64,000 nucleotides of DNA from assembly GCF_038246755.1 (NCBI RefSeq), contig NZ_CP134706.1, forward strand, positions 5,518,001 to 5,582,000, written 5' to 3'. Position 1 is the stretch's first letter, and each line of letters begins with the position of its first letter. Position numbers and translations under genes: made by a program. Below, one piece after another: positions 49,013 to 63,214 of this stretch. The stretch is from Micromonospora sp. FIMYZ51 (GTDB lineage Bacteria; Actinomycetota; Actinomycetes; Mycobacteriales; Micromonosporaceae). The notes under the pieces were generated by a model that worked only from the letters and a program-made list of their open reading frames with translations, was not told the DNA's origin and ran no database searches.

Positions 49013-51895
49013 TTACGGAAGGACCCAGCGCTGGTTGGCGTCGGTGTGGCAGGTCCACAGGTGCACGGCCTGACCATCGGCCGAGCTGTTGTTCGACACG
49101 TCGAGGCACTTGCCCGAATTCGGGTTACGCAACGTGCCGTTCGACTGCGCCGACCACACCTGCGCACCACCACCGTTGCACGTCCACAACTGGATCTTCG
49201 TACCATCCGCCGACCCCGCACCATTGACATCCAGGCACTTACCCAACGCCCGGATCGTCGAGTTCGGCGTCACCGTCCACGTCTGCCCCGCACCACCGTT
49301 GCACGTCCAGATCTGGACCTGCGTACCATCCGCCGACGAACCATTACGCACATCCAGACACTTACCCGCCAACCCGGTGATCCGACCCGTCCGCTCACCA
49401 CTCGGCGGCGGATTGGTCCCGGTGCTGAGGGCGAACGAGTCCAGGTCGTAGAGGTGGCCGGTGCCGGAGCCGGCGAAGGTCAGGTAGAGCGTGGTGGTGC
49501 CGGTGGGTGGGTTGGTGATGCTGCCGGTGACCGTGGTGAAGGTGTCCCAGGCGCCGGTGACCGGGACGGTCGCCGAGCCGAGCACGGTGCCGGTGGCCGA
49601 GCCGGCCCGCACCTGGAGGGTGCCGCCGGAGCCGGCCGAGGAGACCCGGGCGCTGAACGAGGTCACGTTGCCGAGCCGGTACGGCTCGAACGCGATCCAG
49701 TCGCCGTTGTTGATGTTGCCGACGGTCTTGCCGCCCTCGGCGGTCGGCTTGTCGAAGGCGTCGACCCCGGAGGCGCTCTTGAAGTGCTCCGCCTGCCGCT
49801 TGCGCGGCTGGAGGGTGTGCTGGGTGTGCGTGGTCAGGCCACCGGCGTCGGTGTACTCGGCGTCGAAGATGCCGAAGATGTTGGCGGCGTCGTCGTGCTC
49901 ACCGTCGACCGGTACGGCGATCGAGCCGGAGCAGCCGTTCTGCGAGGTGATCTGGTGGCCGTGACTGTCGTGGCCCAGCACGTAGGTCATCTTGACCTTG
50001 GTGCAGTCGATGGTGCCGTCCTCCGGGTCGGTCACCGTGATGCTGAACGGCACGGTGTCGCCGAAGCTGAACAGTTGGCCGTTGCCGGGGCTGGTGATGG
50101 TGACCGTCGGGGCGGTGTTGCCGACCCCGATCCGGACGCTCGCCGTGCCGGTGGCGCCCTGCGGGTCGCGTACGGTCAGCGTGGCCGTGTAGTTGCCGTT
50201 CGCGGTGTAGGTCTTGCTCGGGTTCGCCGCCGTCGAGGTGGTGCCGTCGCCGAACGCCCAGGAATAGGTCAACGCCCCACCCTCCGGGTCCGACGACCCG
50301 GCCGAGGAGAAGTTCACGGTCAACGGGGCGACGCCGGAGGTCCTGTCGGCCGAGGCCACCGCGGTCGGTGCCCGGTTGCCGGCGCCGACGTAGTCGTAGC
50401 GGTACAGGGCCGAGTTGTGGTCGCCGTTGTAGTAACCCGTGCCGTAGTCCAGCACGTAGAGCGCCCCGTCCGGGCCGAACGCCGAGTCCATCACCTGCTT
50501 GCCGTTCCACGGGAAGGAGGCGTCGATGCCGGCGATCGAGCCGTTCGCGTTGACGTGGATCGGCTTGATCCAGCCCCGGCCGAACTCGGTGGCGAAGAAC
50601 TGCCCGTCGAAGCTCTGCGGCCACTTGGTGGCCGAGTTCAGGGCGGCGTTGTACCGGTAGACCGGGCCGGCCATCGGCGACTCGGAGCCGCCGCCGAACT
50701 CCGGCGGGCTGCCCGCGTCGCCGGCGTACCGGATCCAGGCCGGTTTGGCGGGCGGCAGCGTGGTCAGGCCGGTGTTGCGGAACGAGTTGTTCGTCGCGCC
50801 GCCGGTGCAGTTGTACTTCGGCCCGGCGGTGTTGTTGGCGAAGTTCCACTCGGAGTACGTCTCGTTCGCGGTGTTGGTGCCGGTGCAGTACGGCCAGCCG
50901 TAGAAGCCGGGCTCGGTGATCCGGTTGAACTCCACCTGGCCGCTGGGGCCACGGTTGGTCGTGCTGCCCGCGTCCGGGCCGTAGTCGCCGACGTAGATGA
51001 CGCCGGTGGCCTTGTCGACGCTCATCCGGAACGGGTTGCGCAGGCCCATCGCGTAGATCTCCGGCCGGGTCCGGGCGGTGCCGGGGGCGAACAGGTTGCC
51101 GGCCGGGATCGAGTACGTCCCGTTGGCGTTGACCTTGATCCGGAGGATCTTGCCACGCAGGTCGTTGGTGTTTGCCGCGCTGCGCTGTGCGTCGTACGCC
51201 GGGTTGCGGTCGGTCCGCTCGTCGAGCGGCGAGTATCCGCTGGAGGAGAAGGGGTTGGTGTCGTCGCCGGTGGAGAGGTACAGGTTGCCGGCCGCGTCGA
51301 AGTCGATGTCGCCACCGGCGTGGCAACAGTTGCCCCGGTCGGCGGCCACGTCCAGGATGTCGATCTTGCTGGACTGGTTGATGGTGAAGTCGGAGTTCAG
51401 GGTGAACCGGGACAGCCGGTTGACGCCCTGCCAGGCGGACCAGTTGGAGCCGGTGGCCGGCGCGTCACCGCCGGGGGTGGCCAGCGGCGGGGCGTAGTAG
51501 AGGAAGATGTGCCGGTTGCTGGCGAAGTTCGGGTCGACCCCGATGCCCTGCAAGCCGTCCTCGTCGTGGGTGTAGACCGGGATGTTGCCGATCACCGAGG
51601 TGTTGCCGGCCGCGTCGGTGCGGCGCACGGTGCCGTTGCGGGCGGTGTGCAGGACCGAGCGGTCCGGCAGCACCGCGAGGGTCATCGGCTCACCGACCTC
51701 GGCGACCCCCTTGGCGAGGGTGACCTGCTGGAAGTCGCTGGCGACGATGGGATGGGCCTGCGCCGGGGCCGGGCCGCCGAGCGGGGCCGGGCCGGTGGCG
51801 AGGGCTACCGTGCCGGCCGTGGCGACAAGCAGTAACGCCGAGCCGGCGGAGCACCGCCGCGCGGCGCGGCGAGGGAAACTGTCTAATGTGGACAT
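49013..51895 (-). CDS. Secreted PQQ-type sugar dehydrogenase with PKD, CBM6-like and ricin-B domains
   Basis: 960 residues. Signal peptide about 1-48. A glucose/sorbosone-dehydrogenase beta-propeller (about 55-480) has THDEDGLQGIGVDPNFASNR, GNCCHAGGDIDFDAAGNLYL, RGKILRIKVNANGTYS and YAMGLRNPFRMSVDKATG, with the PQQ/calcium-site His and Arg positions visible. A PKD domain (about 490-570, FGDGTTSTAANPSKTYTANG), a linker domain, a CBM6-like module (about 700-825, HFKSASGVDAFDKPTAEGGK) and a three-lobed ricin-B lectin complete it. It likely oxidises a sugar bound at the cell surface or on a polymer. ATG 51895 is the only sensible start. Transcribed before the ThuA gene, probably together. Confidence 0.92.
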   Translation of the reverse strand: MSTLDSFPRRAARRCSAGSALLLVATAGTVALATGPAPLGGPAPAQAHPIVASDFQQVTLAKGVAEVGEPMTLAVLPDRSVLHTARNGTVRRTDAAGNTSVIGNIPVYTHDEDGLQGIGVDPNFASNRHIFLYYAPPLATPGGDAPATGSNWSAWQGVNRLSRFTLNSDFTINQSSKIDILDVAADRGNCCHAGGDIDFDAAGNLYLSTGDDTNPFSSSGYSPLDERTDRNPAYDAQRSAANTNDLRGKILRIKVNANGTYSIPAGNLFAPGTARTRPEIYAMGLRNPFRMSVDKATGVIYVGDYGPDAGSTTNRGPSGQVEFNRITEPGFYGWPYCTGTNTANETYSEWNFANNTAGPKYNCTGGATNNSFRNTGLTTLPPAKPAWIRYAGDAGSPPEFGGGSESPMAGPVYRYNAALNSATKWPQSFDGQFFATEFGRGWIKPIHVNANGSIAGIDASFPWNGKQVMDSAFGPDGALYVLDYGTGYYNGDHNSALYRYDYVGAGNRAPTAVASADRTSGVAPLTVNFSSAGSSDPEGGALTYSWAFGDGTTSTAANPSKTYTANGNYTATLTVRDPQGATGTASVRIGVGNTAPTVTITSPGNGQLFSFGDTVPFSITVTDPEDGTIDCTKVKMTYVLGHDSHGHQITSQNGCSGSIAVPVDGEHDDAANIFGIFDAEYTDAGGLTTHTQHTLQPRKRQAEHFKSASGVDAFDKPTAEGGKTVGNINNGDWIAFEPYRLGNVTSFSARVSSAGSGGTLQVRAGSATGTVLGSATVPVTGAWDTFTTVTGSITNPPTGTTTLYLTFAGSGTGHLYDLDSFALSTGTNPPPSGERTGRITGLAGKCLDVRNGSSADGTQVQIWTCNGGAGQTWTVTPNSTIRALGKCLDVNGAGSADGTKIQLWTCNGGGAQVWSAQSNGTLRNPNSGKCLDVSNNSSADGQAVHLWTCHTDANQRWVLP
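49017..49421 (-). repeat. 405-base near-identical duplication, copy B (ricin-B cassette)
   Basis: Partner of 47214-47618. Both copies share A-ending codons such as CCA and GCA at places where neighbouring genes would use GC-ending codons, so the cassette looks foreign to both hosts. Confidence 0.92.
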
Positions 51896-52270
51896 TGGGA
51901 TCTCGTCCCTTCCTGACGATGACTGCCAGGGTGGGCGCGCCGTCGCGCCGGGTGCCAGGGGTGCCGTCGGGCCGCCGGGTCAGCGCCCGGTCGGCCGTGA
52001 CCGCCGATGGCCGGCGGGCCACGTGCTCGGCGGTCACCGATGAACGCGCCCAACCCGCATCGCGGCCCGCGTGGGCGCGGGTCTGCGTACCGTTGAGCAG
52101 GTTCGGTCGATGGGTTCCCGCGCCGCCGGTTCACCTCGACGAAACATTTTCGGTGTTGCCGACGACACTAAATTAGATATGTCGATGTGTCCATACCTTC
52201 CGGCGGCAAGGCGGGGACTTTCGTCGGTTTGATCAAAAGTAGGCGCCGCAGAACACGCAGCCGGAGCGAC
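51896..52270. other. 375-base control region between the Ebo-like operon and the sugar dehydrogenase
   Basis: No gene is seen. The part next to the Ebo operon end (52141-52245) is markedly AT-rich for this genome and holds the best promoter candidate. The remaining 240 bases are GC-rich 5' leader of the dehydrogenase mRNA; an open plus-strand frame there (51886-52176) has no coding character. Confidence 0.5.
52165..52193 (-). promoter_or_regulatory. Promoter candidate for the sugar dehydrogenase/ThuA genes
   Basis: On the minus strand TGGACA (52188-52193), 17-base spacer, TAGTGT (52165-52170) in an AT-rich block. The 5' leader would be about 265 bases. Confidence 0.5.
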
Positions 52271-53338
52271 TCAGCGTTGCCGGTCGGTGGCCTGGGCGGC
52301 CAGCGCGGCCAGCGCCGTGCGGCTCTCCTCGACCAGCTCAAGGCGCTCCAGCACGGCCAGGGCGGCGGCAGCCCGGACCTGGATCATCTGCTCGATCTTC
52401 GTCCGGGCCCCGGTGTCCTCGATGATCTTCCGCAGTTCGGCGGCACCCGCCGGGTCCAGGTCGGGATTGCCGAACAACTCCCGCAGCCGCGCGCTCTGGC
52501 TCCGGTCGGCGGCATCGCGGGCCAGCGCCATCATCACCGTCGGCTTGCCCTCGCGCAGGTCGTCCAGGACGGACTTGCCGGTGACCGCCGGGTCGCCGAA
52601 GACCCCGAGAACGTCGTCGCGGAGCTGGAAGGCGTCCCCGAGCGGGTCACCGAACTCGGCAAGCGCGTCGGTAAGCGCGGCCGGCGCCCCGGCCAGCGCG
52701 GCGCCGATCTGCAACGGCCGGGTGACGGTGTACCGCGCACCCTTCATCCGGATCACGGTGAGCGCGCTGGCGACCGAGCCGTCCCCCACCCCGGAGACCA
52801 GGTCGAGGTACTCCCCCGCGATCACCTCGGTGCGCATCAGCGCGAAGACGGCGTATCCGCGATGCACCGCCTCGGTGCTCAGTCCGCACTCGTGGAACAT
52901 CTGGTCGGCCCACGCGGCGCAGAGATCGCCGCAGAGCAGGGCGGTGTTGCGCCCGTACGCCTCGGGGTCGCCCCGCCAGGACGAGCGGGCGTGCAGATCG
53001 GCGAAGATCCGGTGCACCGAGGGCTCTCCTCGGCGGCGGTCACTGCCGTCCAGGATGTCGTCGTGGATCAGCGCGAAGGCGTGGAACAGCTCCAACGCGG
53101 CGGCGGCGGTCACGATCGGGGTGCCGTCCGGGCCGCCCGCGCCCCGCCAGCCCCAGTAGCAGAAGAGCGGACGCAGCCGCTTGCCGCCGGTCAGCACGAA
53201 CCGGTGCAGTGTGGTGAAGACGCCACGTGGCGCGCCGTCCGGCCAGTCCGGGTCCTGCCGGCCGAGGAAGGCGGTCAGCTCGGCGTCGAACCGGGCCCGC
53301 AGTTCACCCGCGTCGGTCGGCACCGCCGTGACGGTCAT
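52271..53338 (-). CDS. Polyprenyl (GGPP-type) diphosphate synthase, last gene of the Ebo-like operon
   Basis: 355 residues. A trans-prenyltransferase fold: GGKRLRPLFCYWGW, first Asp-rich motif IHDDILDGSDRRRG (about 93-97), MKGARYTVTRPLQIGAAL and the second motif QLRDDVLGVFGD (about 241-245), followed by GKSVLDDLREGKPTVMMAL. It condenses IPP with an allylic diphosphate; the residues before DDILD suggest a C20-type product, but chain length cannot be read from sequence. Start overlaps the EboF stop (ATGA). Its product would serve the UbiA-type EboC of the same operon. Confidence 0.9.
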   Translation of the reverse strand: MTVTAVPTDAGELRARFDAELTAFLGRQDPDWPDGAPRGVFTTLHRFVLTGGKRLRPLFCYWGWRGAGGPDGTPIVTAAAALELFHAFALIHDDILDGSDRRRGEPSVHRIFADLHARSSWRGDPEAYGRNTALLCGDLCAAWADQMFHECGLSTEAVHRGYAVFALMRTEVIAGEYLDLVSGVGDGSVASALTVIRMKGARYTVTRPLQIGAALAGAPAALTDALAEFGDPLGDAFQLRDDVLGVFGDPAVTGKSVLDDLREGKPTVMMALARDAADRSQSARLRELFGNPDLDPAGAAELRKIIEDTGARTKIEQMIQVRAAAALAVLERLELVEESRTALAALAAQATDRQR

Positions 53339-54723
53339 GACGCCGCCAACCCGGCCAGCTCCAGCAGCAGCCCCTTCACCTCCGTGGCCGCTATCCGGTC
53401 CCGGGCCACCGAGGCGTCGGAGCAGAGCAGCACCGGCCCGTCGGCCGGGTCGGCCGGCAGCCGCCCGTGCGACCCGCGCACCGCCCGTGCCCCGGCGTCC
53501 AGCCCGACCACGCTCATCAGGTACCGCATGCCCAGCTTCTTGCGCGCCAGCGCGACGGCGGCGCGGCGCTTCGCCGCACCGGGAGCGGCCGGGTCGAAGA
53601 GCAGCTCCGCCGGGTCGTAGCCAGGTTTGCGGTGGATCTCGACCAGCCGGGCGAAGTCGGGCGCCCGGACGTCGTCCAACCAGTAGTAGTACGTGAACCA
53701 GGCGTCCGGCTCCGCCACCAGCACCAGCTCACCGGCGCGCGGGTGGTCCAGCCCGTAGGTCGCCTTGCCGGCGGCGTCGAGCACCTCGGCCACCCCGGGC
53801 AGCCCGGCGCAGAGCTTCGCCACCGCCGGTACGTCCGCCGGATCGCGCACGTACACGTGGGCGATCTGGTGGTCGGCGACCGCGAACGCCCGGGAGGTCC
53901 ACGGGTCGAGGTACTCCATGCCGGCCTGGGTGTGCACCCGCAGCAGCCCTTCGGCGCGCAGCAGCCGGTTCACGTCGATCGGCCGGGAGACGTCGGTGAT
54001 GCCGTACTCGGAGAGCACCACCACCGTCGCGTCCCGCTCCCGCGCGGCGTCCAGCAGCGGGGCGAGCACGCCGTCCAACTCGGCCGCCGCGGCGGCGGCC
54101 TGCGGCGCGGACGCGCCGAAGCGTTGCAGGTCGTAGTCCAGGTGCGGGACGTAGACCAGGGTCAGGTCGGGTGACTGCTCGGCGAGGATCCGCTGCGCTG
54201 CCTGGCAGATCCACCGGGACGAGGCCAGCCCGGCCCCCGGCCCCCAGTAGTTGAAGAGCGGAAAGGTGCCAAGCGCCGCGGTGAGCGAGTCGTGCAACTG
54301 CGGCGGGTCGGTGTAGCAGTCCGGGTCCTTGCGCCCGTCGGCGTGGTACACCGGGCGCGGGGTGACGGTCCAGTCCACGTCCGCGCCCATCGCGTACCAC
54401 CAGCAGACGTTCGCCACCGTGTAGTCCGGCCGGACCCGGCGCGCCGCCTGCCACAGCTTCTCCCCGCCGACAAGCGCGTTGTGCTGCCGCCAGAGCAGCA
54501 CCTCGCCGAGGTCGCGGAAGTACCACCCGTTGCCGACGATCCCGTGGTCGGCGGGGCGGCCCCCGGTGAGGAATGTCGACTGCACCGAGCAGGTCACCGC
54601 CGGCAGCACCGTGCCCAGCTCGGCGCGGAAGCCGGTGTCGGCCACCGCGCGCAGCCGGGGCATGTGCGCCAGCAGGCGCGGGGTCAGTCCCACCACGTCC
54701 AGCACCACCAGCTGTCGACCCAT
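53335..54723 (-). CDS. eboF: EboF-like nucleotide pyrophosphatase/phosphodiesterase (alkaline-phosphatase superfamily)
   Basis: 462 residues. LVVLDVVGLTPRLLAHMPRL is the metal-binding start with Asp and Thr, VTCSVQSTFLTGGRPADHG holds the Thr/Ser nucleophile loop, and VYVPHLDYDLQRFG, VVVLSEYGITDVSRPIDVN and AVADHQIAHVYV supply the further Asp/His metal ligands. The family hydrolyses phosphodiester or pyrophosphate bonds. In ebo clusters EboF is the member of this superfamily. One-base overlap with EboE (TGATG). Symbol by operon context and homology. Confidence 0.82.
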   Translation of the reverse strand: MGRQLVVLDVVGLTPRLLAHMPRLRAVADTGFRAELGTVLPAVTCSVQSTFLTGGRPADHGIVGNGWYFRDLGEVLLWRQHNALVGGEKLWQAARRVRPDYTVANVCWWYAMGADVDWTVTPRPVYHADGRKDPDCYTDPPQLHDSLTAALGTFPLFNYWGPGAGLASSRWICQAAQRILAEQSPDLTLVYVPHLDYDLQRFGASAPQAAAAAAELDGVLAPLLDAARERDATVVVLSEYGITDVSRPIDVNRLLRAEGLLRVHTQAGMEYLDPWTSRAFAVADHQIAHVYVRDPADVPAVAKLCAGLPGVAEVLDAAGKATYGLDHPRAGELVLVAEPDAWFTYYYWLDDVRAPDFARLVEIHRKPGYDPAELLFDPAAPGAAKRRAAVALARKKLGMRYLMSVVGLDAGARAVRGSHGRLPADPADGPVLLCSDASVARDRIAATEVKGLLLELAGLAAS

Positions 54724-56009
54724 CAGGCCGCCACCTCGCTTCGGTGAAGGGTCAGCCCGAGGGCGACCAGCTCGTCTCGGGCGAAGGCCAGCTCCGCGGC
54801 GATCCCGGCGGCCAGCTCCGCGTCGGTCTGCGGGCGCCGCGCGGCCGGCAGCACCCCCCAGGTGTACGTCTCGACGTCGAGGTGATCACAGCCGACGTCC
54901 GGGCCGGCGAGCAACGCGGCCAGCGCGGTACGCAGCACCGGCAGGGTCGAGCCCAGCGGCGGCTCGGGTGGGGCGTGCAGCGGCACGTGGTAGTGCACCC
55001 GCCACGGGCCCGGCAGCGCCGCGTCGAGCGCCGCGTCCAGGTCGTCGGCGGCCCAGGCCGGGTCCGCCGGATCCGCCGAGCCGGGGCCACCGCCGGCCGA
55101 ACCCGGACCACCGCCGGCCGAGCCGGTCACCGTGCTCCCGACGGGCGAGCCGGTTGCGGCGGCACGGTCGGATGCGGCGGCACAGTCGGCGGTGCGGGTC
55201 TGGTGCAGGAACCGTGGCTCGACCCAGCGGCGCAGCGCGGCGGCGTCGCCGGTCGGGTCGGCCGCCTCCAGCGCGGCGGAGACCTGCACCTTCACCACCG
55301 GCAGACCGGCCGCCGCCAGCCGGGCCAGGGCCGCGGTGGGTTCCTCCCAGGCGCAGGCGAGATGGGCCAGGTCCAGGCAGACCCCGAGCCACTCGGTGTC
55401 CACAGCGGACAGTAGGGTCGCGGCCTGCGTGGTGCTCTCCACCACGCAGCCGGGCTCCGGCTCGAAACCGACCCGGACCGGCCGGCCGGTCTCCCGCTGC
55501 ACGTCGGCGAGCCCGGCGGCGAGCTGGTCGAGGCGGCGTCGGGCGGCGTCGGCCCGGGTCGCGTCCCAGGGCGTCCGCCAGGCCAGCGGCAGGGTGGAGA
55601 CCGAGCCCCGGGCAGCGTCGGGCGGCAGCAGGTCGGCGAGCACCCGGGCCAGGTCCAGGGTGTACCGGAGCCGATCGTCGGTGGTCCAGTCCGGGTGGTA
55701 CACCGCGCCCTTCACCACCGGCGCCTGGAAGGACGCATACGGGAAGCCGTTGAGGGTGACCACCTCCAGGCCGCGTACCGACAGCTCGGTGCGCAACCGG
55801 CGGCGGGCGTGCGGATCGGCGGCCAGCTCGGCGGCGACCGGGGCGGCCAGCCACAGGCCCAGGCCGAGCAGGTCGCTGCCGAGCGCCGCGCGGACCGGCA
55901 CCGCGTACCTGTCGAGCTGACCGAGGATGCCGGTGAGATCCTCGGCCGGGTGCACGTTCGTGCAGTAGCCGAGGTGCACCGTGCGCCCACTCGGGTGCCG
56001 CAGCCGCAT
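54723..56009 (-). CDS. eboE: EboE-like metabolite traffic protein (TIM barrel)
   Basis: 428 residues. The start MRLRHPSGRTVHLGYCTNVH, then AEDLTGILGQLDRYAVPVRA, VVTLNGFPYASFQAPVVKGA, VRVGFEPEPGCVVESTTQAA and GVCLDLAHLACAWEEP are characteristic of EboE, a xylose-isomerase-like barrel required for export of scytonemin-type or other ebo metabolites in other bacteria. Glu, Asp and His positions could bind a metal. A low-complexity insert of about 40 residues (GSAGGGPGSAGGGPGSADPA) interrupts the last third and looks recent. One-base overlaps on both sides. Confidence 0.88.
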   Translation of the reverse strand: MRLRHPSGRTVHLGYCTNVHPAEDLTGILGQLDRYAVPVRAALGSDLLGLGLWLAAPVAAELAADPHARRRLRTELSVRGLEVVTLNGFPYASFQAPVVKGAVYHPDWTTDDRLRYTLDLARVLADLLPPDAARGSVSTLPLAWRTPWDATRADAARRRLDQLAAGLADVQRETGRPVRVGFEPEPGCVVESTTQAATLLSAVDTEWLGVCLDLAHLACAWEEPTAALARLAAAGLPVVKVQVSAALEAADPTGDAAALRRWVEPRFLHQTRTADCAAASDRAAATGSPVGSTVTGSAGGGPGSAGGGPGSADPADPAWAADDLDAALDAALPGPWRVHYHVPLHAPPEPPLGSTLPVLRTALAALLAGPDVGCDHLDVETYTWGVLPAARRPQTDAELAAGIAAELAFARDELVALGLTLHRSEVAA

Positions 56010-56860
56010 CAGCTGCCGCCGCGCAGGATCGAGTTGCCGGCGAAGGTCGCCTCCGGTGCCTCGATGTCGCTCAGGTCGAGCCGGCCGGACTGCCCGTAGA
56101 ACTCGACCGGGTTGCGCCAGAGCACCCGGTCGACGTCGTCCTCGGTGAACCCGGCGAGCCGCATCGCCTCGCCGGTGGCCCGGGTCAGCAGCGGGTCCGA
56201 GCGGCCCCAGTCGGCGGCCGAGTTGACCAGGACCCGTTCGGGCCCGTACGCCTTGAGCACCTCGACCATCCGGGGCGGCGACATCTTGGTGTCCGGGTAG
56301 ATGGAGAAGCCGAGCCAGCAGCCGGTGTCCCGGACCAGTTTGACGGTCACCTCGTTGAGGTGGTCGAGCACCACCCGGCCCGGTTCGATGCCGGACTCGG
56401 CGACCACGGCGAGGCTGCGCTCGACGCCACGGGCCTTGTCCCGGTGCGGGGTGTGCACAAGCGCCGGCAGGTCGTGCGCCACGGCCAGGGCCAGCTGGGC
56501 GGCGAAGGCGGCGTCCTCCTCGGGCGTCATCGAGTCGTACCCGATCTCGCCGACCGCGACCACGCCGTCCTTGTCCAGGTAGCGGGGCAGCACGTCGAGC
56601 ACCGGCCGGCAGCGCGGGTCGTTGGCCTCCTTCGGGTTGAGCGCGACGGTGGCGTGGTGGCGTACCCCGAACTGGCCGGCCCGGAACGGCTCCCAGCCGA
56701 CCAGGGAGTCGAAGTAATCGGTGAACGACCCGACGTTCGTACGCGGCTGGCCGAGCCAGAACGCGGGTTCCACCACCGCCCGCACCCCCGCGGCGGCCAT
56801 CCGCTCGTAGTCGTCGGTGGTCCGGGACGTCATGTGGATGTGCGGGTCGAAGATGCGCAT
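56009..56860 (-). CDS. eboB: EboB-like TatD-family metal hydrolase
   Basis: 283 residues. MRIFDPHIHMTSRTTDDYER carries the HxH metal site. VVEPAFWLGQPRTNVGSFTD, GEIGYDSMTPEEDAAFAAQL, VHTPHRDKARGVERSLAVVA, VLDHLNEVTVKLVRDTGCWL and VNSAADWGRSDPLL supply the further Glu, His, His and Asp ligands of the TatD barrel. EboB of the ebo operon belongs to this family; the substrate is unknown and DNA is not implied. ATG 56860 overlaps the EboA stop (TGATG); longer in-frame starts run into EboA and are not used. Confidence 0.85.
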   Translation of the reverse strand: MRIFDPHIHMTSRTTDDYERMAAAGVRAVVEPAFWLGQPRTNVGSFTDYFDSLVGWEPFRAGQFGVRHHATVALNPKEANDPRCRPVLDVLPRYLDKDGVVAVGEIGYDSMTPEEDAAFAAQLALAVAHDLPALVHTPHRDKARGVERSLAVVAESGIEPGRVVLDHLNEVTVKLVRDTGCWLGFSIYPDTKMSPPRMVEVLKAYGPERVLVNSAADWGRSDPLLTRATGEAMRLAGFTEDDVDRVLWRNPVEFYGQSGRLDLSDIEAPEATFAGNSILRGGS

Positions 56861-57507
56861 CACGCCTCCCTGGGGTGCGGTTGGCCGGTGGCGACCAGCC
56901 GGCCCGGCGGATCGGTGATGGTCAGCCGGTCCAGCAACTCGGTGGCGTCGGCGGGCATGGTCCGGCCAGCGGCCCGCCGCTCGGCGGCGAGCGCGGCGAG
57001 CATCGCCGCCAGTTCCCCGTCGGCGCGGGCGTCGAGGTCGGCCACCACGGCCAGCGGTACGCCGGTGAAGACGCACTTGAGCACGGCCTGCCGCCAGGCC
57101 GGTGCGTCCAGGTGCTCCGCGTACGGGCCGAGGGCGGCGGCGACCAGCCGGGTGTCGTTGGTACGCAGCGCGTCGTGCAGCAGCGGCAAGCCGGCCGCGC
57201 CGACCGGCAGCAGCGGCAGCGCCTTGAGCACGGCCCGCTTCTCGGCCGCGTCCCCGGTGCGGTAGAGCGTCTCGACCCATTCCGCGTGCCCGCTCGGCAG
57301 GGTGGCCAGCAGCAACGCGCGGGCCGCCTCGTCGGCGGTCCAGCCCGGCAGGTCGGGCAGCTCGGCCCGCCCGCAGCAGCGTCCGACGGCCGGAAAGAAC
57401 CGGGCGATCGCCGCCGGCTGCGTCGCGACGCCGCGCAGCGCCGCCGCCAGCCAGTCCGGATCGGGTACGTCCCGCAGGGCCGCCCGCAGCTCGTTCGGTG
57501 TGCTCAC
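56860..57507 (-). CDS. eboA: EboA-domain protein
   Basis: 215 residues, all helical, no signal or membrane segment. WLAAALRGVATQPAAIARFF, FPAVGRCCGRAELPDL, ARALLLATLPSGHAEWVETL, KRAVLKALPLLP and DTRLVAAALGPYAEHLDAPA are landmarks of the EboA family. Its biochemical role is unknown, but it is a fixed member of ebo clusters. GTG 57507 overlaps the stop of the preceding TIM-barrel gene by four bases (GTGA). Confidence 0.88.
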   Translation of the reverse strand: MSTPNELRAALRDVPDPDWLAAALRGVATQPAAIARFFPAVGRCCGRAELPDLPGWTADEAARALLLATLPSGHAEWVETLYRTGDAAEKRAVLKALPLLPVGAAGLPLLHDALRTNDTRLVAAALGPYAEHLDAPAWRQAVLKCVFTGVPLAVVADLDARADGELAAMLAALAAERRAAGRTMPADATELLDRLTITDPPGRLVATGQPHPREA

Positions 57508-58415
57508 CGTCTCCGCCCTTCCTGTGCTGCCGTCAGTGGTGCGCCACCAGCGGACGCGGCGCGCAGGAAATCAAGCGAGTGGGCGGCCACGGCCGGGGCG
57601 GCGTGCGAGTGCCGGGGCAGTTCGACGGCGACCAGACCCCGGTAGCCGACCTCGCGCAGCGCGGCGAGCACCGGCGGGAAGTCGATCTCGCCGGTGCCGA
57701 ACTCCAGGTGCTCGTGCACGCCCCGCCGCATGTCGTCGATCTGCACGTTTACCAGGTGGGCGCCGACCTCGCGGACGCACTCGGGCACCGGCGCAGGCTC
57801 CAGGCAACGACAGTGCCCGATGTCGAGGGTGATGCCGAACGCCGCCGGGCGCCCCAGGTCCGCGTACAGCCGGTGCCAGCCCGCGATGTCCTCGACGAGC
57901 ATTCCCGGTTCGGGCTCGAAGCCCAGCCGCACACCGGCGGCGTCGGCCGCCGCCACCACGGTGGCGGAGCCGGCCAGCAGGCGGTCCCAGGCGACGGCCC
58001 GCGGGACCTCCTCGGGTCGTACCCCGGCCCAGTAGGAGACCGCCTCGGCGCCGAGGTCCGCGCCGATCGCCACCGCGCGACGCAGGAACTCCACCCGGCG
58101 GGCGGGATCGTCGTGCAGCAGCGTCGGGGCGTGCTTGTGCCACGGGTCGAGCAGGTAGCGGGCCCCGGTCTCGATCACCACCGCCAGGTCGAGCGCGGCC
58201 AGCCGGCGACCCACGGCGGCGACCCGGCGGGCCAGCCCCGGCGCGAACGGGTCGAGGTGGTCGTGGTCCAGGGTCAACGCGACACCGGCGTAGCCGAGTT
58301 CGGCGATGACCGCCAGCGCGTCGTCGAGGCGGTGGTTGGCGAAGCCGTTGGTGCCGTACCCGAACCGCAGGCCGCCGGCCCCCGCGCCGGGGGCTGCGGT
58401 GCTGGCGGCGGTCAT
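57504..58415 (-). CDS. TIM-barrel sugar-phosphate isomerase/epimerase-like protein
   Basis: 303 residues. LRFGYGTNGFANHRLDDALA, YAGVALTLDHDHLDPFAPG, VVIETGARYLLDPWHKHAPT, VRLGFEPEPGMLVEDIAGW, GITLDIGHCRCLEP and LVAVELPRHSHAAP describe an AP-endonuclease-2-like barrel with Glu, His, His and Glu metal ligands. It is distinct from EboE. It sits between EboC and EboA and may isomerise or epimerise the cyclitol or its precursor. ATG 58415 overlaps the stop of the frame-shifted EboC tail (ATGA). Confidence 0.88.
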   Translation of the reverse strand: MTAASTAAPGAGAGGLRFGYGTNGFANHRLDDALAVIAELGYAGVALTLDHDHLDPFAPGLARRVAAVGRRLAALDLAVVIETGARYLLDPWHKHAPTLLHDDPARRVEFLRRAVAIGADLGAEAVSYWAGVRPEEVPRAVAWDRLLAGSATVVAAADAAGVRLGFEPEPGMLVEDIAGWHRLYADLGRPAAFGITLDIGHCRCLEPAPVPECVREVGAHLVNVQIDDMRRGVHEHLEFGTGEIDFPPVLAALREVGYRGLVAVELPRHSHAAPAVAAHSLDFLRAASAGGAPLTAAQEGRRR

Positions 58416-59298
58416 GTCGGGGACACCTTCCGGGCCAGTCGCCGACCCAGCGGCGCGGCTGCCGCCACCGCCAGCCCGAGCAGGCCGGCACCGGCACGCG
58501 CGGTCAACGCGCCCTGCAAGGCGGGCAGGCCGGTGATGCCGGCGCCGACCGCCGCGCGGACCCGGTCGGCGGTGGGTCGGGCGACCACCTGGCCTGCGCG
58601 CCGCCGTACCGGGCGGCGTACCAGCCGGCGAGGACGGCGGGCAGCGTCGCCGCGACGGCGCCGACGGCACGCCGACCGGCCCCGGGCCGGGGCGGGCGGG
58701 GTGGGCGGGCGGCGCTGGCGGCGACCAGGGCGGTGCCGGCGAGGGTGCCCAGCGGCAGCACGGCGTCGGTGCCGTGCACCTCGCGGCGGGACAGGACGGT
58801 CACGGTCCAGGTGTGCGCGGCCACGGTGCCGGCCGCCGGTAACGCCCGCACCGGCCGGCAGCCGGCGCCGAGCAGCACGTCCAGGCCCCGGCAGGTGGCC
58901 ATCACGGCCGGCCCGGCGGCGGTGTTCTTGGCCGCCAGGTCGTACCCCCAGACGGCGGCGGCCAGCGGTAGCGCGACGGCGACGGAACCGCGTCCACCGG
59001 CAGCGGCGGCGAGCCCGACGCCCGCGACGGTGAGGCCGGCGGCCAGGCCGACCGCGACGCGGGGGCTGACCCGTCCGCTGGGGATCGGCCGCTCCGGGCG
59101 TTCGACGGCGTCGAGCCGCCGGTCGGCCCAGTCGTTGGCGGCCATGCCGGCCCAGTAGAGCAGGACCGACGCGGCGGCCAGGGCCGGTGTACGCGGGCCG
59201 AGCGTGCCCGCCGCGGCGGCACCGGCGATCACGTCGCCCGGTACCGAGAGCGCGGCCGGTGCCCGGACCAGCTCGGCGAGGTCAGCCACGCGGGTCAT
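58412..59298 (-). CDS. eboC: EboC-like UbiA-family prenyltransferase, with apparent frameshift
   Basis: Starting at ATG 59298: membrane segments begin at about residue 38, and MAANDWADRRLDAVERPERP is the first Asp-rich prenyl-diphosphate motif (NDxxDxxxD). The frame then reads to about 58595 with UbiA-like helices (LAGWYAARYGG), but continues only into a Pro/Ser/Arg-rich tail stopping at 58504. A -1 shift near 58590-58610 restores VVARPTADRVRAAVGAG, then ITGLPALQGALTARAG and a hydrophobic helix, ending at TGA 58412, which overlaps the next gene as ATGA. So one base is probably missing, either a real mutation or a sequencing error. In 264-residue form it would lack its last helix. Confidence 0.82.
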
Positions 59299-60442
59299 CG
59301 GCACCTCCGGTGTGCAGGCGATTGGTGAAGGCGCGGAGCCTGGTCCACTGCTCGGCGAGCGATCCGGTGCCGGTGCCGAGCGGGTCCTTGAAGAAGAAGG
59401 CGAGGTCGGCCAGCGCCCCGGTCTGGCCGGCGGCATGCGCGGCGGCGGTCAGCCGGGCCAGGTCGAGCACGAGTGGCGCGGCCAGTGCCGAGTCGCAGCC
59501 GTGCCAGGTGAACTCCAGGCGCATCCCGGTGCCGAGGAAGCCGGCGAAGGTGATCAGATCCCAGGCGGTCTTGAAGTCGCCCAGGTCCTCGACGTAGTCG
59601 ATCCGGGTGTCGCCCTGCGGCAGGTAACCGAGCGTCTCGCCGAGCACCCGCTGCTTGCTGCGGACCTTTGCGGCGTTGGCCGCCGGGTCGGCAAGCGTGG
59701 CGCCGTCGCCCCCGCCGAGCAGGTTGAGCCCGGACCAGGACCGCACGGTGAGGTTGCGCATCGCGAACATCGGGGCGAGCACCGACTTGAGCAGGGTCTC
59801 CCCGGTCTTGCCGTCGTGCCCGGCGTAGGGCACCCGATGGCTGTCGGCAAGCGCGGTAAGCGCCGGCAGCCGCAGGCCGGTGGAGGGGGTGAAGTCGACG
59901 TACGCACAGCCCGCCGTCACCGCCGCGTACGCGTAGAGCGAGCTGGGTGGCAGCACCTCGTCGGGGCCGGCGAGGGCGGCGTGCAGCGCGTCCGGCTCGG
60001 CGTGCGCGGGGTGCGGGCGGCACGCCGGCTCGGTGGCCGCGACGTTCACCACCACCACCCGGACCAACTGGTGCCGGTCCCGGAACTCGGTGAGGTCGCG
60101 GACCAGCGTGGCCGCCCGGTCGGCCTGACTGCCGCCGCTCGGTGCCGGTCGCAACTCCCGCTCGACGGCGGCCAGTTCCTCCGGCAGCGCGGCGACCAGG
60201 CGGGCCGGCAGCACCCCGGCGGCGGCCAACGCCTCGGCGCGTTTGGCAAGTGGGGTGGCGACCACGTCGTGCCCGCCGAAGACCAGGTCGGCGAAGGCCG
60301 GCAGGGCCGGGCCACTCAGCTCGGGTAACTCGGTGACACACCCGGTCGACCCGGTCAACCCGGCCCGCAGGGCGAGCGCCCCCACGATGCTGGTGGTCGC
60401 GACCGAGCCGCGCGCTCCCACCAGCCAGACACCCGTGCGCAT
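59282..60442 (-). CDS. Inositol-3-phosphate-synthase-family protein heading the Ebo-like operon
   Basis: 386 residues. VWLVGARGSVATTSIVGALA is the NAD-binding Rossmann start, with VVVVNVAATEP, YVDFTPSTGLRLPALTALA, AGHDGKTGETLLKSVLAPMF, LNLLGGGDGATLADP, DYVEDLGDFKTAWDLITFAG and LEFTWHGCDSALAAPLVLDL, as in bacterial and archaeal Ino1. The enzyme turns glucose 6-phosphate into a cyclitol phosphate by an NAD-dependent oxidation, aldol closure and reduction. ATG 60442 has GGGAAGGAGC upstream. It overlaps EboC by 17 bases and takes the place of EboD, the sugar-phosphate cyclase of other ebo operons. Confidence 0.88.
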   Translation of the reverse strand: MRTGVWLVGARGSVATTSIVGALALRAGLTGSTGCVTELPELSGPALPAFADLVFGGHDVVATPLAKRAEALAAAGVLPARLVAALPEELAAVERELRPAPSGGSQADRAATLVRDLTEFRDRHQLVRVVVVNVAATEPACRPHPAHAEPDALHAALAGPDEVLPPSSLYAYAAVTAGCAYVDFTPSTGLRLPALTALADSHRVPYAGHDGKTGETLLKSVLAPMFAMRNLTVRSWSGLNLLGGGDGATLADPAANAAKVRSKQRVLGETLGYLPQGDTRIDYVEDLGDFKTAWDLITFAGFLGTGMRLEFTWHGCDSALAAPLVLDLARLTAAAHAAGQTGALADLAFFFKDPLGTGTGSLAEQWTRLRAFTNRLHTGGADDPRG

Positions 60443-60940
60443 GGCGCTCCTTCCCGGTCGGGGAATCCGGCCATCGAATTACATGAATATCACAGATTGA
60501 TGAAGAAAGATACCCTTTATGCGGATGCGCCCCGTCCGCCCGGCCGCCCGGGATGGAGGCTTGCCGGCCCGGCGGCGAGGTCGGCGGCGACGCCGTCGCA
60601 CCGGCGACCCGGAGCAGGCCCGACGGACGGGGCTGGCAGGCAGGGGCGGTCGGCGTCGCACCCCTGCCTGCTCCGCATCCGGCCGGTCGCGAGCATGGCG
60701 CGTCCGGCCGGACGACTGGTCGAAGGCGGACCGCCGTCGAGGCGGTCGAGGTCTGTCGGCCCGTGGGCCGTGGGGCGGTCCTCCGGTGCGGCCGGGGAAT
60801 CCCGGTCCGGCCACACCGGAGGAACCGCACTGCTTGTGCCCACCGGCGTCACGGCCTGCGGGCACACCCTCCGGTGCCGACCCGTACCGGCCGCGGGGCG
60901 CAACCGCGGCCGGCCCTCGCCGGTCGGCACCGCAGGTGGC
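60443..60940. other. About 500-base gap with the Ebo operon promoter region
   Basis: Bases 60470-60530 are AT-rich for this genome (GAATTACATGAATATCACAG, then GATTGATGAAGAAAGATACC) and must contain the promoter of the minus-strand Ebo operon; no single -35/-10 pair stands out. The next 400 bases are GC-rich, open in several frames on both strands but without recognisable protein sequence, and are taken as non-coding. No terminator after the Gfo/Idh gene is clear. Confidence 0.45.
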
Positions 60941-62149
60941 TCAGGCCACGGCCCCCGCCAACGCCGGCTCCACCTCGGTCCAGGAGGACCCGAGTTCGGC
61001 CGAGCGGACCACCGCGTCCAGCACCAGTTGCACCTGCAACGCCTCGGCGAAGGAGGGCGTCGGATCCGCGCCGGTCGCCACCGCCTCGATGAAGTCGCGC
61101 ATCTGGTGGGTGAAGGAGTGCTCGTACCCGATGATGTGCCCCGGCGGCCACCAGGCCGACAGGTACGGGTGCTCGGCCTCGGTCACCAGGATTCGGTTGA
61201 AGCCCTGCTCCGCGGTGGGCCGCGTGGCGTCGTAGAACTCCAACTCGTTGAGCCGTTCCAGGTCGAAGGCGACGCTGCCGAGCGACCCGTTGATCTCGAC
61301 ACGGAGGGCGTTCTTGCGCCCGGTGGCGAACCGGGTCGCCTCGTAGGTGGCAAGCGACCCGCCTTCCAGCCGGGCCACGAAGATGGCCGCGTCGTCGACG
61401 GTGACCGGGCCGGTGGCGGCGTTGCCCCCGTCGGCCTGCGCGGCCAGCCCGCTCGACTCGGTCGGCAACGGCCGCTCCTTGACGAACGTCTCGGTCACCG
61501 CGCTGACGCCGGTGATCCGCTGGCCGGTGACGTACTGGGTCAGGTCGATGATGTGCGCACCGATGTCACCGAGCGCGCCGGAGCCTGACACCTCCTTGCG
61601 CAGCCGCCAGACCAGGGGGAACTGCGGGTCCACGATCCAGTCCTGAAGGTAGGTGGCCCGGACGTGCCGGATGTCGCCGAGCCGCCCGTCGGCGATCATC
61701 TGCCGCATCAGCGCCACCGCGGGCACCCGCCGGTAGTTGAATCCGCACATCGACCGCGCCCCACCGGCCCGGGCGGTGGCCGCCGCAGCAGCCATCTCCC
61801 GCGCCTCGGCGACGGTGTTGGCAAGCGGCTTCTCGCACAGTACGTGCTTACCGGCGGCCAACGCGGCCAGGGCGATCTCGGCGTGGCTGTCGCCCGGCGT
61901 GCAGATGTCGACCACGTCGATGTCCGGCCGGGCCACCAGTTCCCGCCAGTCCGTGGTGTGTTCCTCCCAGCCGAGCCGGTCGGCGGCCTCGGCCACCTTT
62001 CCCGGATCCCGGCCGCAGACGAGCACCATCCGGGCCCGTGCCGGCAGGTCGTACACCCGGTTCACGGTGCGCCACGCCTGCGAGTGCGCGGCGCCCATGA
62101 ACGCGTAGCCGACCATGCCGACCCGCAGTTGGTTGTCGTTCGTGGACAA
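60941..62149 (-). CDS. Gfo/Idh/MocA-family NAD(P)-dependent dehydrogenase
   Basis: 402 residues. A Rossmann N-terminus (LRVGMVGYAFMGAAHSQAWR, DIDVVDICTPGDSHAEIALA), the conserved lysine motif HVLCEKPLA and the C-terminal beta-sheet domain with GSGALGDIGAHIIDLTQYVT, where the catalytic Asp and His are found. The family includes inositol 2-dehydrogenase and other cyclitol and sugar oxidoreductases. It follows the substrate-binding protein by about 20 bases, in the order permease, binding protein, dehydrogenase. Substrate not determinable. Confidence 0.9.
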   Translation of the reverse strand: MSTNDNQLRVGMVGYAFMGAAHSQAWRTVNRVYDLPARARMVLVCGRDPGKVAEAADRLGWEEHTTDWRELVARPDIDVVDICTPGDSHAEIALAALAAGKHVLCEKPLANTVAEAREMAAAAATARAGGARSMCGFNYRRVPAVALMRQMIADGRLGDIRHVRATYLQDWIVDPQFPLVWRLRKEVSGSGALGDIGAHIIDLTQYVTGQRITGVSAVTETFVKERPLPTESSGLAAQADGGNAATGPVTVDDAAIFVARLEGGSLATYEATRFATGRKNALRVEINGSLGSVAFDLERLNELEFYDATRPTAEQGFNRILVTEAEHPYLSAWWPPGHIIGYEHSFTHQMRDFIEAVATGADPTPSFAEALQVQLVLDAVVRSAELGSSWTEVEPALAGAVA

Positions 62150-62170: not shown

Positions 62171-63214
62171 TCAGAACCCGAGCTTCAGGTAGTCGCTCGC
62201 GTTCTCCTTCGTGATCGTTTCCGAGGCGAGGACGATCTCCTTGGGTACCTGGAGTTCCACCAGGTCGGACATGCCCCGGCCCTGGCCGATCAGCCGGGCC
62301 AGCGAGATTGCCGAGGAGGCCATCGACGGGCTGTAGGTCACGGTGGCCTTGAGCACCGTGTTGTCGGCCTGGATGTCCTCCATCGCCTTCTTCGAGCCGG
62401 CACCGCCGACCATGAAGAACTCGTTGCGGTTGGCCTGGCTGATCGCGGCCATCACCCCGATGCCCTGGTCGTCGTCGTGGTTCCAGATCGCGTCGATCTT
62501 CGGCAGGGCCTGAAGCAGCTGGCTGGCCTCCTGCTGGCCGGAGTCCACGGTGAAGCGGGCCGCCCGCCGGTTGGCCACCTTCAGGCCGTGCTGGGCCAGC
62601 GTGTCGTTGAAGCCCTTCGTGCGCTCCTGGGTCAGCTCCAGTTCGTCCATGCCGGCGATCTCGGCGATCACCGGGTTGCTCACGCCCTTGGCCTTGAGCT
62701 GCTCGAAGATGAAGTTGGCCGCCGAGACGCCCATGCCGTAGTTGTCGCCCTTGATCTGCAACCGGTACGCCTTGGCGTCCGGGAAGGCCCGGTCCAGGTT
62801 GACCACCGGGATGCCGGCCGCCATCGCCTCCAGGCCGAACGAGTTGAGTTCCTTGCCGTCGTGCGGCAGCAGCACGATCACGTCCGGCTTCTGCGAGATC
62901 AGCGTGGACAGCGCCGCCCGCTGGGCCGCCGCGTCCGCACCGGCCTCGACCGTCTTGAACTCCACGTCGGAGTACGCGTCGGCCTGCGCCTTGGCGTTGT
63001 TGGTGATCGCCGCGATCCAGCCGTGGTCGGCGGCCGGCGCGGAGAAGCCGATCGTCACCTGCTTGCCGGGCTCGGCGTTGCCACCGCCGTCGGCCGCCTT
63101 GGTCTGTGCCTCGGTCGGTGTGCTGCTCTCGTTGCTGGTGCAGGCCGAGAGCAGTACGCCGGCGCCGACGGCCGCCCCGCCGAAGAGCAGCCGGCGACGA
63201 CTGTGCTGGGTCAT
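62171..63214 (-). CDS. Sugar/cyclitol ABC transporter substrate-binding lipoprotein (RbsB-like)
   Basis: 347 residues. The signal MTQHSRRRLLFGGAAVGAGV ends in the lipobox LLSAC; the twin arginine could allow Tat export. The mature protein is a type I periplasmic-binding fold: VTIGFSAPAADHGWIAAITN, QKPDVIVLLPHDGKELN, GIPVVNLDRAFP, KGDNYGMGVSAANFIFEQL, IAEIAGMDELELTQERTKGF and AIWNHDDDQGIGVMAA. These binding proteins feed ribose, inositol or xylose-type permeases. The permease encoded upstream is of that type. Confidence 0.92.
   Translation of the reverse strand: MTQHSRRRLLFGGAAVGAGVLLSACTSNESSTPTEAQTKAADGGGNAEPGKQVTIGFSAPAADHGWIAAITNNAKAQADAYSDVEFKTVEAGADAAAQRAALSTLISQKPDVIVLLPHDGKELNSFGLEAMAAGIPVVNLDRAFPDAKAYRLQIKGDNYGMGVSAANFIFEQLKAKGVSNPVIAEIAGMDELELTQERTKGFNDTLAQHGLKVANRRAARFTVDSGQQEASQLLQALPKIDAIWNHDDDQGIGVMAAISQANRNEFFMVGGAGSKKAMEDIQADNTVLKATVTYSPSMASSAISLARLIGQGRGMSDLVELQVPKEIVLASETITKENASDYLKLGF

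Follow-up and report, generated by a model that had tools for sequence, protein, structure and literature searches.

Gene clusters of the ebo type are widespread across phyla. A prenylated cyclitol has already been proposed for clusters encoding the sugar phosphate cyclase EboD and the prenyltransferase EboC (Yurchenko et al., 2016; PMC5133447), and the same authors mention actinobacterial fusions of a TIM barrel with EboA. In Nostoc punctiforme, deletion of scyE and each ebo deletion made lead alike to loss of scytonemin and build-up of its monomer, but the monomer is confined to the cytoplasm in the ebo mutants and not in ΔscyE; a role for ebo in metabolite translocation was proposed in that work (PMC6282210). 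ScyE has been assigned to the beta-propeller clan (PMC4870267). In Streptomyces coelicolor, the transferase SCO3242 and the myo-inositol phosphate synthase SCO3243 are both listed in the CDA cluster (PMC3610822). Here we describe an ebo operon of Micromonospora sp. FIMYZ51 that has no EboD and instead encodes an Ino1-like cyclase and a TIM-barrel protein, which we call TIMx. It lies in a stretch of 64,000 nucleotides (the window; bases 5518001-5582000 of the 7.05-Mb single-contig genome NZ_CP134706.1).

Results

An ebo operon with a MIPS-family cyclase and no EboD

The operon lies on the minus strand and runs from 60442 to 52271. Its first gene encodes a 386-residue Ino1-like cyclase of the myo-inositol phosphate synthase (MIPS) family, which falls in a distinct ebo clade (59282..60442; PF07994, 167.5 bits; PF01658, 103.4 bits). 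This is followed by an eboC-like gene for a UbiA prenyltransferase of the SCO3242 family (58504..59298 in the frame as read), by TIMx, a TIM barrel of the AP_endonuc_2 sugar isomerase/epimerase superfamily (57504..58415; PF01261, 119.6 bits), and by eboA (56860..57507), whose product passes the EboA domain model NF035938 (162.8 bits, cut-off 50) but falls below the cut-off of the EboA family model NF035937 (80.1 bits, cut-off 320). The remaining genes are eboB, for a TatD-like metal-dependent hydrolase (56009..56860; PF01026, 43.1 bits), eboE, for a further TIM barrel (54723..56009; NF035939, 399.2 bits, cut-off 250), eboF, for a protein of the type I phosphodiesterase/nucleotide pyrophosphatase family (53335..54723; PF01663, 213.9 bits), and a gene for a short-chain polyprenyl-diphosphate synthase of the geranyl, farnesyl or geranylgeranyl diphosphate (GPP/FPP/GGPP) type (52271..53338; PF00348, 156.4 bits). 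EboB and EboF align and form trees with their homologues from EboD-type ebo clusters, the window EboF being 57% identical to that of one such cluster, L053 (numbers with L denote loci, and those with G genomes).

Gene identity and order are directly observed, with all eight genes assigned by curated models or Pfam on the minus strand in the order that the first-pass annotation had given. The overlaps of 1-17 bases that it reported are present at six junctions (Ino1/EboC, 17; TIMx/EboA, 4; EboA/EboB, 1; EboB/EboE, 1; EboE/EboF, 1; EboF/prenyl synthase, 4). The sole non-overlapping junction is EboC/TIMx, where the eboC stop at 58504 and the TIMx ATG at 58415 leave a gap of 88 bases, because the expected eboC C terminus is in another frame (see below).

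Both MIPS-family Pfam domains and the catalytic lysines are present in the window Ino1. A MIPS-class cyclase stands in EboD's place. The genome has two Ino1 genes. Against TIGR03450, the model for the mycothiol INO1 (cut-off 638), the window copy scores 22.5 bits versus 667.8 for the other copy, and the idea that it is the housekeeping mycothiol enzyme was rejected. An EboD encoded elsewhere in the genome was likewise rejected: the search for the DHQ-synthase (dehydroquinate synthase) family, to which EboD is similar, returned one AroB (TIGR01357, 325.8 bits, cut-off 305), near aroC, and one weak match that is glycerol-1-phosphate dehydrogenase-like. The first-pass annotation had named a canonical EboD gene elsewhere in the genome and linked to EboC, or a housekeeping identity of the Ino1 homologue, as what would refute its proposal; neither was found.

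The closest relatives of the window Ino1 are Micromonospora proteins, from 93% identity downward, and the nearest solved structure is that of A. fulgidus MIPS (1u1i; E 4.7e-68). We compared 26 ebo-clade Ino1 proteins, excluding a fragment at L050, at positions that we take from A. fulgidus MIPS work to be important or to be catalytic lysines. D225, K227, N255, D261, K274, K278, K306, D332 and K367 (A. fulgidus numbering) are invariant in 26 of 26, and S253 and D259 are replaced by glycine in all 26. K278 and K367 appear as alanine in two of the solved MIPS chains. Because the nine checked positions are invariant throughout, the ebo Ino1 is likely to be an active cyclase.

The Ino1 form is a conserved variant in Actinomycetota

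The first-pass annotation suggested a search for Ino1-Ebo clusters in actinobacteria, and we surveyed a sample of 396 Actinomycetota genomes. EboE occurs in 27 of them, at 29 loci including second copies, and 25 of these loci have an ebo-clade Ino1 in cis. Window-type Ino1 gave 26 matches at E <=1e-98, in 25 genomes, with the next match only at 8e-67; 25 of the 26 genes have an EboE gene no more than 6 kb away, and all 26 occurrences of the clade are in genomes with ebo genes. The four other EboE loci differ: that of G301 (L053) carries a DHQ synthase (EboD) instead of Ino1, that of G335 has a fragment of Ino1 in cis, with an intact copy on a separate contig, the second EboE cluster of G123 has no Ino1, and G244 has none in cis. 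The cluster of G301 (L053, 7645-13625) is of the EboD type and has no EboA match, so both ebo forms occur in the phylum. In G335, the ino1 fragment lies within the ebo operon at L050 14479-14748 and the intact gene of the same clade at L051 7993-9162, near a TIM barrel with a Tat-like (twin-arginine) start, a GSDH gene and a Gfo/Idh gene.

From 26 genomes in seven family-level groups we fetched 28 Ino1-type loci. The order Ino1-EboC-TIMx-EboA-EboB-EboE-EboF is kept in 24 of them, spanning six of the groups; of the other four, Ino1 is missing from L045, TIMx from L056 and both from L072, and L050 carries the fragmentary Ino1. The ebo Ino1 clade forms a separate branch in the tree (support 94/95). 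An Ino1 match away from the ebo locus is also present in 26 of the 27 EboE-positive genomes, G237 having only the ebo copy. These data support the Ino1 form of ebo as a stable variant in Actinomycetota.

We considered whether the operon Ino1 does no more than provide ordinary inositol phosphate, destined for phosphatidylinositol or for inositol use, with EboC acting on an unrelated aromatic acceptor. The conservation of all nine checked MIPS positions would fit such a role, as would the prenylation of 8-hydroxyquinoline-2-carboxylate by UbiA-297, an EboC (PMC9235831). We judge this improbable given the separate mycothiol-type INO1 in the genome, the non-ebo Ino1 matches in nearly all EboE-positive genomes, and a clade that is separate in the tree, confined to ebo-bearing genomes and, in 25 of 26 cases, located at the ebo locus itself.

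Quick, unrooted trees of EboF (109 rows) and EboB (99 rows) place all 28 Ino1-type rows on one side of a branch, with support of 100 for EboF (Shimodaira-Hasegawa-like approximate likelihood ratio test, SH-aLRT) and 96 for EboB. In the EboB tree, the Ino1-type side joins (100) a group of 60 EboD-type rows, 57 of which have an EboA match, and the other 11 rows, all without an EboA match, fall outside this grouping. From these positions, the replacement most simply arose once, beside EboA-type EboD clusters.

To describe EboD-type clusters outside Actinomycetota, we scanned genomes using an EboF alignment whose first sequence was that of the EboD-type L053 and kept the best 80 of at least 580 confirmed relatives. 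An EboD match is present in 75 of these 80 loci and Ino1 in none; because the loci were ranked against an EboD-type query, which favours EboD types, this set describes EboD clusters and is no test for Ino1 types outside Actinomycetota. No TIMx was found beside ebo in the same 80 loci, where there is one weak TIM match at the end of L133. Fifty of these genomes were searched whole; eight have Ino1 relatives, and even the best of these (E 1.5e-51) does not reach the range of the ebo clade. The alternation of EboD with Ino1 plus TIMx is directly observed in the samples; some of the 26 Ino1-type genomes have second DHQ-synthase genes (type not assigned), which lie away from their EboE loci.

TIMx accompanies Ino1 inside and outside ebo

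TIMx is present in all 26 Ino1-type genomes. In G244, the ebo operon lacks both Ino1 and TIMx, and the two genes are adjacent elsewhere, in L077. A sister branch of Ino1, together with a matching branch of TIMx, was found in a second actinobacterial cluster. Because Ino1 and TIMx are paired in three settings, the sequences argue for the two enzymes catalyzing consecutive steps. Ino1 alone as the replacement for EboD, the form in which the idea was first put forward, was rejected, since TIMx accompanies it in every Ino1-type genome and also elsewhere as a pair; the replacing unit is probably Ino1 plus TIMx. The nearest solved relatives of TIMx are MJ1311 and L-ribulose-5-phosphate 3-epimerases, and it may be an isomerase, epimerase or dehydratase. 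In L070, TIMx and EboA are one fused protein.

The pair in L077 (7249-9303) is set amid genes that we recognised by eye as groESL-like and tsaD-like. The second recurrent cluster comprises Ino1, an HD domain protein, a methyltransferase, a Gfo/Idh (inositol-dehydrogenase-like) protein, YcaO and a TIM barrel; all six genes were annotated in L078 (367-8437) and four in L074, whereas for L079-L082 the assignment uses the genes at the two ends. Its gene content suggests an uncharacterised cyclitol pathway that includes a YcaO step.

EboC and the supply of prenyl donors

The window EboC scores 103.2 bits against the 'EboC' model NF035940 (cut-off 250) and 308.2 bits against the 'SCO3242 family prenyltransferase' model NF045897 (cut-off 260). 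It has the features of a UbiA prenyltransferase (PF01040, 61.5 bits, cut-off 34.2), including the motifs NDWADRRLD and SRREVHG. The first of these, as NDxxDxxxD, is found in all 16 EboC proteins compared (seven Ino1-type and nine EboD-type). The second, as SxxEVxG, is found in 7/7 Ino1-type and 5/9 EboD-type proteins, the latter from cyanobacteria, Bacteroidota and Armatimonadota, and not in those of L053, L100, L111 and L119.

The eboC frame has a ribosome-site-like sequence at its start and ends in ∼30 unrelated residues. The last 55-60 codons expected from the same-genus relatives L064 and L065, in which the eboC and TIMx genes overlap, sit in another frame (58415-58600). This frameshift is either a real mutation or a sequencing error. 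Read as a mutation, the out-of-frame C-terminal part would be consistent with an operon that is decaying and non-functional in this strain. We regard such decay as unlikely, as the remaining seven genes have open frames, the shift falls downstream of EboC's prenyl-diphosphate motifs, and a sequencing error is possible in DNA this GC-rich.

The first-pass annotation also credited the operon with its own prenyl donor supply. This applies to three Micromonospora-like loci, the only ones in which the prenyl-diphosphate synthase follows EboF as the last operon gene, and on this ground the synthase was rejected as part of the conserved operon. A homologue is near only 5 of the 28 Ino1-type loci, in three placements, the other two being before Ino1 (L044) and on the opposite strand beside EboF (L071). 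For the window enzyme, NF042416 is the best model but is below its cut-off, and the nearest solved proteins are a GGPP synthase and an FPP synthase; the genome has five prenyl-diphosphate synthase genes. Isopentenyl diphosphate (IPP) isomerase genes are near ebo at 8 of 110 loci, namely the Ino1-type L044 and L068 and the alphaproteobacterial EboD-type L111, L117, L118, L120, L123 and L124, and all six that were checked against curated models pass TIGR02150. Because isoprenoid-supply genes lie beside ebo in both types, an association that is itself directly observed, the sequences support a working prenyltransferase at ebo loci.

GSDH genes are recurrent neighbors of ebo

The first-pass annotation saw no other biosynthetic genes, a view that does not hold for the window, where conserved same-strand neighbors flank the operon on both sides. 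Beyond the prenyl synthase lie a GSDH protein, a putatively secreted beta-propeller dehydrogenase with PKD, CBM6 and ricin-type lectin domains and a signal-peptide-like start read by eye (49013..51895, minus strand) and a protein joining ThuA, 3-keto-disaccharide hydrolase and lectin domains (47210..48931, minus strand), with homologues near the ebo loci of a Streptomyces-like group (f5; name inferred). Upstream of ino1 are a Gfo/Idh/MocA oxidoreductase resembling levoglucosan and inositol dehydrogenases, below model cut-offs (60941..62149, minus strand), and the sugar-binding protein of an ABC transporter (Peripla_BP_4; 62171..63214, minus strand). The GSDH and ThuA genes are upstream of ino1 in the f5 loci and downstream of the operon in the window's genus.

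A GSDH gene is near 19 of the 28 Ino1-type loci; the one counted at L066 and at L067 is no more than a 29% relative. Among the 396 genomes, GSDH (E <=1e-60) and EboE are each found in 27 and both in 24 (Fisher p ∼5e-32, treating genomes as independent, though they are not). The two genes are within 15 kb of each other in 17 of the 24 co-occurring genomes. No GSDH at E 1e-60 lies within 15 kb of EboE on the same contig in G153, G237, G335, G094, G154, G244 and G281, with contig ends limiting this check in G153 and G094; G154 and G281 have a 29% GSDH relative beside ebo, and G335 has a GSDH beside its intact second ino1.

The association with GSDH, a direct observation for the Ino1 type, extends to EboD-type clusters. 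In the 50 EboD-type genomes, PF07995 gave 239 matches in ∼304 Mb, so that 0.85 copies are expected in the fetched stretches. At least 10 copies were found, in nine of the 50 loci (L111, twice, L117, L118, L120, L121, L123, L124, L147 and L151; Poisson p ∼2e-8, with fewer independent events given relatedness), each confirmed by Pfam except that of L151, which rests on phmmer and coordinates. All seven loci titled Alphaproteobacteria (L111, L117, L118, L120, L121, L123 and L124) have GSDH, and six of seven have cytochrome c and six of seven IPP isomerase. In L111, L117, L120 and L124, GSDH and eboF are separated by a small cytochrome c gene, and a homologue follows GSDH in L118; L121 has an unrelated cytochrome c in its place (Pfam-checked in L111, L117 and L121). 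In the Hyphomicrobium locus L117, a DUF3617 protein with a signal-peptide-like start (1280-1792) adjoins eboB.

These neighbors could be tailoring enzymes rather than users of a lipid, with exported GSDH, Tat-TIM and Gfo/Idh proteins oxidizing the cyclitol head group of the ebo product on the outer side of the membrane. Sugars and cyclitols are the usual substrates of GSDH, Gfo/Idh and AP_endonuc_2 enzymes, and the GSDH gene is 53-928 bases from eboF in seven of the nine EboD-type loci counted, with cytochrome c adjoining in six alphaproteobacterial loci. The domains that accompany GSDH in the window (PKD, CBM6 and lectin) and in L052 (PKD and CBM6) point instead to a polysaccharide, and we hold tailoring to be unlikely.

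In the window GSDH, a His and an Arg-Asn are retained at positions conserved in the aligned solved relatives, which we take to be those that bind pyrroloquinoline quinone (PQQ). PqqE was found above cut-off in 3 of 30 genomes searched and not in the window genome (G000), which may take up PQQ or obtain it by another route. The same GSDH, whose genome lacks a PqqE equivalog, has a CC pair immediately ahead of a conserved HxGG (CCHAGG).

At the edges of the transcription unit, an AT-rich leader upstream of ino1 with the ribosome-site-like sequence GGAAGGAG (60443..60520, minus strand) is its likely start; a scan for sigma-70 consensus promoters ahead of ino1 gave 0 sites. A weak terminator-like stem-loop directly follows the prenyl synthase stop (52245..52261, minus strand), and the two terminator-like sites in the region compare with 1.8 expected by chance, which is chance level. 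An anti-phage system was rejected, as PADLOC had no match for any of the eight operon proteins.

Discussion

As genomics, it is near certain that this locus represents a real, conserved and new variant of the ebo cluster. No paper describing the Ino1 form of ebo or the GSDH link was found in the literature searched by titles, abstract starts and passages, subscription papers being mostly outside that coverage.

We favor, by a modest measure of confidence, a model in which the locus is an actinobacterial ebo pathway that makes a prenylated cyclitol-derived membrane lipid and works with exported GSDH-type oxidoreductases. We infer the substrates, products, order of steps and lipid function as follows. 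The MIPS-family Ino1 and its partner TIMx, a putative TIM-barrel isomerase, epimerase or dehydratase, would take EboD's place, with Ino1 forming a cyclitol phosphate from glucose-6-phosphate or a related hexose phosphate and TIMx rearranging it. EboF may remove or cleave the phosphate, and EboC, as a UbiA-type membrane prenyltransferase, would add a short prenyl chain, in Micromonospora from a donor made by the product of the eighth gene. EboB and EboE would make further changes, with EboA as a possible scaffold. The lipid would act at the outer membrane face, alongside the exported beta-propeller (GSDH-type) sugar oxidoreductases. A prenylated cyclitol-derived lipid is the most likely product, at about even odds; its partnership with exported beta-propeller oxidoreductases is a bolder reading, directly testable, to which we give roughly one chance in five.

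Several observations weigh against this model. The frameshifted EboC may be inactive in this genome, or the sequence may be wrong. UbiA-297, an EboC from EboD-type clusters, transfers farnesyl groups to quinoline carboxylic acids in vitro, and the part of that report considered here mentions no cyclitol acceptor (PMC9235831). IPP isomerase is found at eight of the 110 loci only. No GSDH is near 9 of the 28 Ino1-type loci (L044, L045, L046, L050, L054, L056, L068, L070 and L072, the upstream side of L054 being cut short), and among the matches listed none is confirmed beside 41 of the 50 EboD-type loci. GSDH occurs without EboE in G031, G231 and G283, and EboE without GSDH in G143, G285 and G301. 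The link may also reflect a shared soil lifestyle or co-transferred islands.

The ebo product could alternatively be a lipid that carries a metabolite through the membrane, in the way proposed for the scytonemin monomer, with GSDH only marking the cargo or the lifestyle. The N. punctiforme ebo deletions, which trap the monomer in the cytoplasm as ΔscyE does not, favor such a carrier (PMC6282210). There is, however, no transporter among the seven conserved operon genes, and the recurrent partners are oxidoreductases, cytochrome c and isoprenoid-supply genes, although no search was aimed at a cargo pathway; we regard a carrier as possible but doubtful.

A broader proposal, which we advance only tentatively and consider rather unlikely, is that both ebo types build a prenylated cyclitol-derived redox lipid or cofactor serving exported beta-propeller oxidoreductases. 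With similarly low confidence we would name its partners as GSDH-type enzymes in Actinomycetota, Alphaproteobacteria and some Bacteroidota, and ScyE in scytonemin synthesis. A purely redox role is at odds with the confinement of the monomer to the cytoplasm in ebo mutants only (PMC6282210). If the redox proposal were true, the scytonemin defect of ebo mutants would stem no less from the lack of a ScyE partner than from the lack of an exporter, and Actinomycetota would have reconstructed this pathway with another cyclase at its core, Ino1 plus TIMx.

The use of an unrelated cyclase for EboD, with the prenyltransferase and the rest kept, would mean that the pathway depends on a ring derived from a sugar phosphate. 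It also offers a second, easier way into ebo, through inositol chemistry in genetically tractable actinomycetes. The links to a GSDH-type dehydrogenase, cytochrome c and IPP isomerase make the unknown lipid directly testable.

The window operon shares with canonical eboABCDEF, as described for N. punctiforme, Bacteroidota and eustigmatophyte plastids, homologues of EboA, EboB, EboE and EboF, an EboC-like protein with the first prenyl-diphosphate motif, and the operon organisation (PMC5133447, PMC6282210). In contrast to the canonical cluster, it has Ino1 and TIMx and no EboD, the DHQ-synthase-like sugar phosphate cyclase, and its EboC passes the NCBIfam model for SCO3242 and not the one for EboC. 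PDB 6k96, which we take to be Ari2, a synthase of a five-membered cyclitol phosphate, is a MIPS homologue that makes a different product; it is further from the window Ino1 (E 7.9e-11) than is the archaeal MIPS 1u1i (E 4.7e-68). The SCO3242/SCO3243 pair, compared by description only, resembles the window operon in that the namesake of the SCO3242 transferase family is numbered next to a myo-inositol phosphate synthase, but it is not named as an ebo cluster in the portion of PMC3610822 drawn on here. The TIM-barrel/EboA fusions of PMC5133447 match the single TIMx-EboA protein of L070, but no Ino1 neighbor is mentioned for them, and the word 'inositol' occurs 0 times in the main text of that paper. 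Finally, ebo clusters without EboA (EboG type; PMC5133447), to which we liken L053 although EboG itself was not part of the search, share EboB, EboC, EboE and EboF with the window type. L053 differs in having EboD and no EboA match, and such rows stand apart from the Ino1 type in the EboB tree.

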